NCBI RefSeq assembly: GCF_004944975.1
Contig: NZ_SPQG01000003.1
Span: 47,998-82,417 of the forward strand
Source: Halorhabdus amylolytica
GTDB lineage: Archaea > Halobacteriota > Halobacteria > Halobacteriales > Haloarculaceae
Reading direction: 5' to 3'
DNA: 34,420 bases
The notes below the pieces were generated by a model, which made no database searches, was not told the origin of the DNA, and was given only the letters and a program-made list of their open reading frames with translations. Both the position numbers and the translations under genes were made by a program. Of the stretch, positions 17,609 through 21,202 are shown one piece after another. The stretch's first letter is position 1, and each line of letters opens with the position of its first letter.

Positions 17609-17692
17609 GCGAGGGTAGCCAAGCCTGGAAACGGCGGCGGACTCAAGATCCGCTCCCGTAGGGGTCCATGCGTTCAAATCGCATCCCTCGCA
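17609..17692 (+). tRNA. tRNA-Leu (anticodon CAA)
   Basis: The acceptor stem GCGAGGG pairs with CCCTCGC, with A as the discriminator base as expected for leucine. The anticodon stem GCGGA/TCCGC encloses CTCAAGA, giving anticodon CAA for the UUG codon, and U33 is present. A long class II variable arm follows, then the T-arm ATGCG-TTCAAAT-CGCAT. CCA is not encoded. The gene borders a region of decayed mobile DNA and seems to have been an integration target. Confidence 0.95.
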
Positions 17693-17765
17693 CTGCTGGG
17701 CCCACGCGGCCCCTCGCAAACCAGTGCAGGAAGATCGTCCCTCTCGGGGGCCATCTTCCCTCGCA
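17684..17765. repeat. Three copies of the tRNA-Leu 3' end octamer
   Basis: CCCTCGCA, the last eight bases of tRNA-Leu, occurs at 17685-17692, 17711-17718 and 17758-17765. The first and third copies share the 9-mer TCCCTCGCA. Such short copies can be left by site-specific integration at a tRNA 3' end, but 8-9 bases is short and chance cannot be excluded. Confidence 0.4.
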
Positions 17766-17787: not shown

Positions 17788-17830
17788 GGGTAGCCAAGCC
17801 TGGAAACGGCGGCGGACGCAAGATCCGCTC
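17788..17830 (+). pseudogene. Truncated copy of the tRNA-Leu 5' half
   Basis: Positions 17788-17830 match tRNA-Leu 17613-17655 at 42 of 43 bases, covering the end of the acceptor strand, the D-arm and the anticodon arm. The only difference changes the invariant U33 to G. The acceptor 5' strand is altered, and the variable arm after 17830 diverges into unrelated DNA with no T-arm or 3' acceptor strand. It cannot be a working tRNA. Confidence 0.9.
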
Positions 17831-18098
17831 TTGGAGGGTACTCGTGAGCGGAGCGAACGAGAGCTCGGAAGGCGAGCGGCGCGAGGCGCGACCAGCGCGA
17901 GCGCCTCGTTGCAAACGGTATCTGCAGGGATACAGGTAAACACCATTCCGCGAGATACAAGGCGCGAGTCTCTCACGGTCAATAATAAGGATTGGTTGCG
18001 TCGGCGGTGGTCATTGTAACACTGGCGTCGGTCTCAACAAGTATTTCTCGTCGATGGCTGGGCTATTTTGTGTGATTGAACTGCGAAAGGGGACTGCA

Positions 18099-18150
18099 CT
18101 TGACATCCTCCCCGCACTGAAGCGCGAGGCTTTCGCCTCGAACCTCCCGT
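18099..18150 (-). mobile_element. IS200/IS605 (IS1341-type) right-end remnant, no tnpB
   Basis: On the minus strand the segment reads CGAGGCGAAAGCCTCG, then a short hairpin region GCGCTTCAGTGCGGGG and the terminus AGGATGTCAAG. CGAGGC/GCCTCG (18125-18130 and 18135-18140) is a perfect stem. This layout matches my memory of the 3' ends of haloarchaeal TnpB elements, where the omega-RNA scaffold sits. There is no tnpB on either side. It may be a solo end or a deletion derivative. Confidence 0.6.
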
Positions 18151-19781: not shown

Positions 19782-20267
19782 ATGTTCGAGAAAGCGAAGG
19801 AGTTCCTCTTCGCGGAGGACCGCGGTGTATCGCCTGTGATCGGTGTCATCCTCATGGTCGCCATTACAGTGATTCTGGCGGCCGTGATCGCGACGTTCGT
19901 GATGAACATGGGGCCGTCCGAGCAGACCCAGCCCAGCGTGCAGTGGGAATGGAACAACGAGAGTGACGGTGGTGGGAACTATTATTACACGCTCTCGCAT
20001 ACCGGTGGTGACGCAGCCAACCCCGGTAATCTTGTAATTCAAGCGGATGGGACTGAGGAAGGGACATTAAAAAGCGGGAATGGTATGCCCAGTGAGCTAA
20101 CTGCTGGCACTACTATCGCTATGAATAGTTCAGCTGCTGTTCCATCTTCCCTGCCTAGTCCCAATATGAGTCTTACCGACGATCCGGAGAGTATTGACGA
20201 AGTCCAACTCATCTGGGAGAACCCGGAAAGCGACCAGACTCAAGTCATCAGCGACTTCGACGGATAG
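19782..20267 (+). CDS. Type IV pilin (haloarchaeal, Pilin_N family)
   Basis: A 161-residue secreted pilin. The class III signal peptide ends AEDRG, followed by the hydrophobic assembly helix VSPVIGVILMVAITVILAAV, the hallmark of haloarchaeal PilA-type pilins cleaved by PibD. The mature part has an aromatic strand (QWEWNN), several potential glycosylation sites (NNES, NSS, NMS) and the conserved tail VQLIWENPESDQTQV. It is a paralogue of the pilin at 20729. Pilins of this kind build adhesion pili; no pilB/pilC assembly genes are in the window, so it must use machinery encoded elsewhere. Confidence 0.9.
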   Translation: MFEKAKEFLFAEDRGVSPVIGVILMVAITVILAAVIATFVMNMGPSEQTQPSVQWEWNNESDGGGNYYYTLSHTGGDAANPGNLVIQADGTEEGTLKSGNGMPSELTAGTTIAMNSSAAVPSSLPSPNMSLTDDPESIDEVQLIWENPESDQTQVISDFDG

Positions 20268-20728: not shown

Positions 20729-21202
20729 ATGGACTTGAAGCACTACCTGTTTGGCGACGAACGGGGGGTATCGCCGGTCATCGGGGTCATCCTGATGGTC
20801 GCAATCACTGTCATCCTGGCAGGCGTCATCGGCGCGTTTGTAATGAATATGGGCGCGGATGGGGAGACGCCACCGAACGTCCAGTGGGAGTGGAACAACG
20901 AAACGACGTACTTCACGCTTGAACACACGGGCGGTGACGCAGCTGTGGCAAACAACTTGGTGGTAAGTGTCGATGGGACAGAGTACTCTCTTTCCCCAGC
21001 AGAAACGGCTGTCCGTGGTATGCCCGATGAACTGACTGCCGGGACGACTATCGGGATGAATGAGTCGTCATCGACGCCCTACCCACCAGTCAATCCAAAT
21101 ATGAGTATTGGCAACGATCCGGCCGATGTCGATGAAATCCAACTGATCTGGGAGAACCCGAACAGCGATCAGACCCAGGTCATCACCACGTACGACGGAT
21201 AA
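20729..21202 (+). CDS. Type IV pilin, paralogue of the pilin at 19782
   Basis: A 157-residue secreted pilin with the same design: short basic leader ending GDERG, assembly helix VSPVIGVILMVAITVILAGV, VQWEWNNET strand and tail IQLIWENPNSDQTQV. The N-terminal 50 and C-terminal 25 residues are highly similar to pilin 1, while the middle differs in length and sequence. That is typical of diversified pilin paralogues with different surface exposure. The two genes look like a tandem duplication later separated by IS605-like DNA. Confidence 0.9.
   Translation: MDLKHYLFGDERGVSPVIGVILMVAITVILAGVIGAFVMNMGADGETPPNVQWEWNNETTYFTLEHTGGDAAVANNLVVSVDGTEYSLSPAETAVRGMPDELTAGTTIGMNESSSTPYPPVNPNMSIGNDPADVDEIQLIWENPNSDQTQVITTYDG

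Follow-up and report, generated by a model that had tools for sequence, protein, structure and literature searches.

The closest described system is the tyrT/tyrV-rttR locus of E. coli, where tandem units with exact copies of the tRNA 3' end lie directly behind the tRNA. Downstream of tyrV, 19 nt copies of the 3' end are found at +178, +356 and +534. Tandem units with copies of the tRNA's own 3' end are likewise present behind tRNAs of the genome studied here, but E. coli has a single operon with 178-bp repeats, whereas in haloarchaea many tRNA genes are involved and the hairpin bodies are variable. The cassette behind tRNA-Leu(CAA) described below also holds a 5' part of the tRNA, unlike the tyrT/rttR repeats.

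In Haloferax, tRNA-like elements are processed by tRNase Z. Their T-arm and acceptor-like 3' ends resemble those of the units here. Haloarchaeal att sites in tRNA genes, e.g. those of Haloquadratum prophages, show partial duplications of the tRNA 3' end of 22 and 43 bp (PMC3119063). These are similar in length to the 3'-end copies here; however, the elements between them are long, and one has an integrase, whereas our units span about 100-190 bp and contain no integrase. Circular whole tRNAs, including a tRNA-Leu, were in one study reported from haloarchaea only (PMC12558985). A description of tRNA-linked arrays of the present kind was not found in the open-access literature.

The half-copy of tRNA-Leu(CAA) in the window

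The window, i.e. the whole stretch of 34,420 nt of Halorhabdus amylolytica DNA that was analysed, contains an intact tRNA-Leu(CAA) and, 95 nt downstream with no gene in the gap, the 5' part of a second copy, Table 1. ARAGORN placed the tRNA at 17609-17693; we take the discriminator A73 as its last base.

Table 1. Features at the tRNA-Leu(CAA) locus, in window coordinates.
Feature	Position	Strand	Description	Basis
Intact tRNA-Leu(CAA)	17609..17692	+	ends at discriminator A73	ARAGORN
Trailer module H1	17693..17718	+	hairpin with CCTCGCA end, a copy of the tRNA 3' end	sequence and fold
Trailer module H2	17719..17765	+	GGAAGATC..CATCTTCC hairpin, end CCCTCGCA	sequence and fold
Second tRNA-Leu copy, 5' part (positions 5-55)	17788..17838	+	T to G at 17818 (canonical U33)	
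Insert hairpin I	17838..17864	+	GTACTCGTGAGCGGAGCGAACGAGAGC	by position; type common to hairpin I of 20 relatives
Insert hairpin II, 5' arm only	17865..17912	+	3' arm and tRNA 3' part (55-84) lost	

An earlier note on this DNA reported a 43-base match, 42 bases identical, to the 5' half of tRNA-Leu with the invariant U33 changed to G. Both observations are confirmed: 17788-17830 aligns to positions 5-47 of the tRNA with 42/43 identities (E = 9.7e-18 within the window), and the sole mismatch, T to G at 17818, falls on canonical position 33. The extent given there holds for the core of the match, but the copy continues weakly to tRNA position 55 at 17838 (47/51 overall), the same break point that is seen in relatives. 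Besides the half-copy, neither strand of the window contains a second significant copy of this tRNA. The window lacks the 3' half of tRNA-Leu, and the genome has no further match to it at E <= 0.001; only short copies of the 3' end are kept, in the trailer.

A HerA-like gene is located about 4 kb downstream of the tRNA, while in the other Halorhabdus genomes in which gene and tRNA were both placed it lies far from tRNA-Leu(CAA), which suggests a rearrangement at the window locus. The window positions 18100-18111 read TTGACATCCTCC, presumably reminiscent of an IS200/IS605 end. Two adjacent archaeal type IV pilin genes (Pilin_N) are found at 19782-20267 and 20729-21202.

Distribution, anatomy and sharp boundaries of the Leu cassette

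Related genomes were searched around tRNA-Leu(CAA), as the earlier note had proposed, and a 5' copy was found downstream of the tRNA in 27 of 104 haloarchaeal neighbourhoods, including 7/7 Halorhabdus. Of the 27 carriers, two genomes come from another family and the others are spread over 12 genera of the window's family. In 16/104 neighbourhoods there is a 3' copy with 28 or more exact bases. The full layout, found in at least 20 genomes, consists of the 5' part to about position 55, a two-hairpin insert and positions 55-84; in 20 genomes both parts were paired by script, with a spacing of 51-165 nt. In G001 both parts are present, the 3' part being partly mutated. The reported state, a 5' half with the 3' half absent, is therefore correct for the window but not in general, as relatives hold both parts; as far as the compared sequences indicate, it is a peculiarity of decayed copies.

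The break in the split copies lies in the variable arm (position 55), and this speaks against recombination in the anticodon arm, which had been suggested as a source of the half-copy. Retro-type copying from a mature tRNA finds no support either, since the relatives' second copies end at A73 and pass into trailer sequence rather than CCA (the tRNA genes here do not encode CCA, and the window copy itself has no 3' end). In most genomes the 3' part is identical to the genome's own tRNA (31/31), although the tRNAs vary between genera, which is consistent with homogenisation and to that extent with the gene-conversion-type copying also considered in the note. An intact second tRNA-Leu, by which the note would have recognised a simple decayed duplicate, was found in one genome (G031, locus L144), where a complete tRNA-Leu(CAA), 82/83 identical, lies about 2 kb downstream; in most relatives the copy is split.

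Modules similar to H1 and to H2 also follow tRNA-Leu(CAA) in relatives. In related genomes the trailer modules (H1 and H2 in Halorhabdus, where a genus-mate of the window genome is Halorhabdus salina FL145) have CTCGCA ends and in many cases are followed by a second tRNA copy, and the trailer modules recur behind that copy. Both the copy and a duplicated flank are thus present in relatives, as expected for a decayed tandem duplicate. In G006 (L079), the third and the fourth 5' copy behind tRNA-Leu(CAA) are separated by a ribbon-helix-helix gene and a ParE-like gene, the latter scoring just under the Pfam cut-off.

All 20 paired inserts fold into two hairpins with nested GA/GA internal loops, and their outer stems show compensating substitutions, for instance GGAAG/CTTCC, GCGAG/CTCGC and GTGAG/CTCAC. 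The window has kept hairpin I and the 5' arm of hairpin II, and the 3' arm of hairpin II is missing. In relatives the cassette starts directly behind A73 with the trailer hairpins, continues with the second tRNA copy (about 5-55), the two-hairpin insert and positions 55-84, and ends at the next A73. It measures about 230-320 bp and is present or absent exactly at the last base of the tRNA within several genera. The flank resumes directly past the cassette when same-genus genomes with and without it are aligned by position, as in G110 and G112 (243 = 1), G118 and G113 (322 = 1), G067 and G064 (230 = 1), and G060 and G061 (245 = 1); the remaining same-genus pairs show small offsets in the flank alignment. 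The hairpin I-II sequence also occurs in a split T-arm unit behind tRNA-Tyr (L003, about 1501-1541; window genome, C1), and inverted behind two tRNA-Val genes.

Hairpin units behind other tRNA genes

The half-copy is one case of a wider set of haloarchaeal hairpin units that follow tRNA genes and carry their own 3' end. With 14 or more exact bases required in the 500 nt behind the tRNA, copies of the own 3' end were found behind 53 of 103 tRNA genes in three genomes: 22/42 in the window genome, 17/31 in G001 and 14/30 in G055, which belongs to another family (for G001 and G055 the 30 best-scoring tRNA loci only). The upstream control gave 0 in each genome, and suffixes of other tRNAs matched downstream in about 1-2% of cases. 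Two genomes of other families show a smaller share (2/16 and 2/15), and no such copy was found among 33 best-scoring tRNAs of non-haloarchaeal members of the phylum.

At its end each unit repeats 14-25 nt from the 3' end of its own tRNA exactly. Where this copy measures 20-25 nt (42 units), the unit has a length of 97-187 bp. In 43 units, bases of the 5' arm pair with the T-stem of the unit's own tRNA copy at 167 of 215 positions, compared with 127.3 +/- 5.6 when the T-stems are reassigned among units. A body motif without any tRNA sequence was found in 45/293 genomes (control 0); among 30 of its loci, one per genome, 25 have an upstream tRNA on the same strand and 22 a copy of that tRNA's own 3' end. 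Two Halorhabdus genomes differ in whether they carry units behind tRNA-Gly(CCC), Arg(CCG), Met and Arg(CCT), and the ends of these units are sharp. Only tRNA was significant when six loci were compared with Rfam, and unit bodies without the tRNA gave nothing at gathering score. Viral contigs scanned with the hairpin and body motifs contained no match, and a plasmid search found none.

At two loci in two genomes (L336, L337), where no upstream tRNA was found, a CGCCGGCCCA-ending fragment and a hairpin unit come after a phage-type integrase gene. At L060, similar units stand behind a stretch ending in CGCGCCGGCCCA that matches no Rfam family.

Origin of the half-copy, nature of the units and anticodon loop changes

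The half-copy is probably the 5' remnant of a downstream tRNA-Leu(CAA) cassette that arose by duplication, hairpin insertion, homogenisation and decay. We infer that tRNA-Leu(CAA) and its trailer would have been duplicated in tandem, that a hairpin element would then have entered the variable arm of the second copy at position 55, and that this copy may have been homogenised with the real tRNA by conversion. The cassette could be gained or lost through recombination between the 3'-end repeats, and in the lineage of the window a deletion or rearrangement would have removed everything from within hairpin II onward. The common break at position 55, the covarying inserts and the flanks that resume directly past the cassette support this reading. 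On the other hand, the occurrence of one insert at one point across about 14 genera, in copies that otherwise match the local tRNA, requires persistent homogenisation or repeated transfer; plain duplication and decay predicts more scatter than is seen, and the presence of the copy in just 27/104 genomes of scattered lineages could mean mobility.

Integration into the 5' half of the tRNA is extremely improbable as the source of the half-copy. It has a precedent in pTN3-like integrases, whose attB is the tRNA 5' half (PMC8371274), but the fragment would then be expected upstream, beyond the element, and not downstream of the intact tRNA; moreover, relatives hold the 3' part as well, and the order of the parts contradicts this reading. 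A broader proposal is that a tyrosine recombinase inserted the cassettes at tRNA 3' ends as minimal integrative elements, with the duplicated 3' end as the att core and the half-copy as a part of such an element. The exact A73 boundary, the presence or absence within genera and the start of the copies in the T-loop, which is known as an att region (review PMC8371274), agree with it, as do the phage-type integrase gene that in two genomes adjoins a unit and a CGCGCCGGCCCA fragment and the RHH and ParE-like genes between copies in G006. However, direct-repeat recombination yields identical boundaries, the units analysed leave no room for a recombinase gene, they bear their own tRNA's 3' end, which a single integrase would not supply, and both motif scans of viral contigs and the plasmid search were empty. 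At the window locus no integrase element separates an intact tRNA from a 3' fragment, because the 95 nt gap holds no gene, the fragment is a 5' part and no 3' fragment was found in the genome. We consider this proposal rather unlikely.

Somewhat less doubtful, though still on the unlikely side, is that the generic units, like the split second copy, may be functional RNAs, co-transcribed with the tRNA and cut by tRNase Z at A73, of which the window copy would be a dead example. The covarying hairpins and the identity with the local tRNA 3' end fit such a role, and the tyrT repeats of E. coli are annotated as the source of the small RNA RttR; against it stand the patchy presence within genera and the lack of a matching Rfam family, and the covariation is equally compatible with single-stranded DNA. 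For the phenomenon as a whole we tentatively suggest, with slightly more doubt than confidence, that haloarchaea carry undescribed tRNA-linked hairpin cassettes, which in some genomes stand behind roughly half of all tRNA genes. These cassettes would duplicate the 3' end of their own tRNA, be gained or lost precisely at A73 and act as processed RNAs or recombination cassettes, the split Leu copies keeping a stem that matches the local tRNA while the anticodon loop is often inactivated. Should units behind many tRNA genes really come and go at the very last base of the tRNA while remaining identical to the local tRNA, an active process, undescribed in searchable sources, would operate at haloarchaeal tRNA 3' ends.

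Changes in the anticodon loop are a further lead. Among 25 second copies, canonical position 33 is G in 11 and position 35 is G in 6, and every substitution at either position gives G. U33 and the anticodon, four positions in all, account for 19 of the 41 mismatches within positions 29-46 of the tRNA gene. Such recurrence is not expected from pure decay, although the enrichment is borderline when genera are counted (p ~0.06). Formation of a GCAA tetraloop by G33 was rejected as an explanation, as it leaves the G35 copies unaccounted for. An exact scan with the G33 anticodon arm matched no viral contig and six genome contigs, three of them haloarchaeal.
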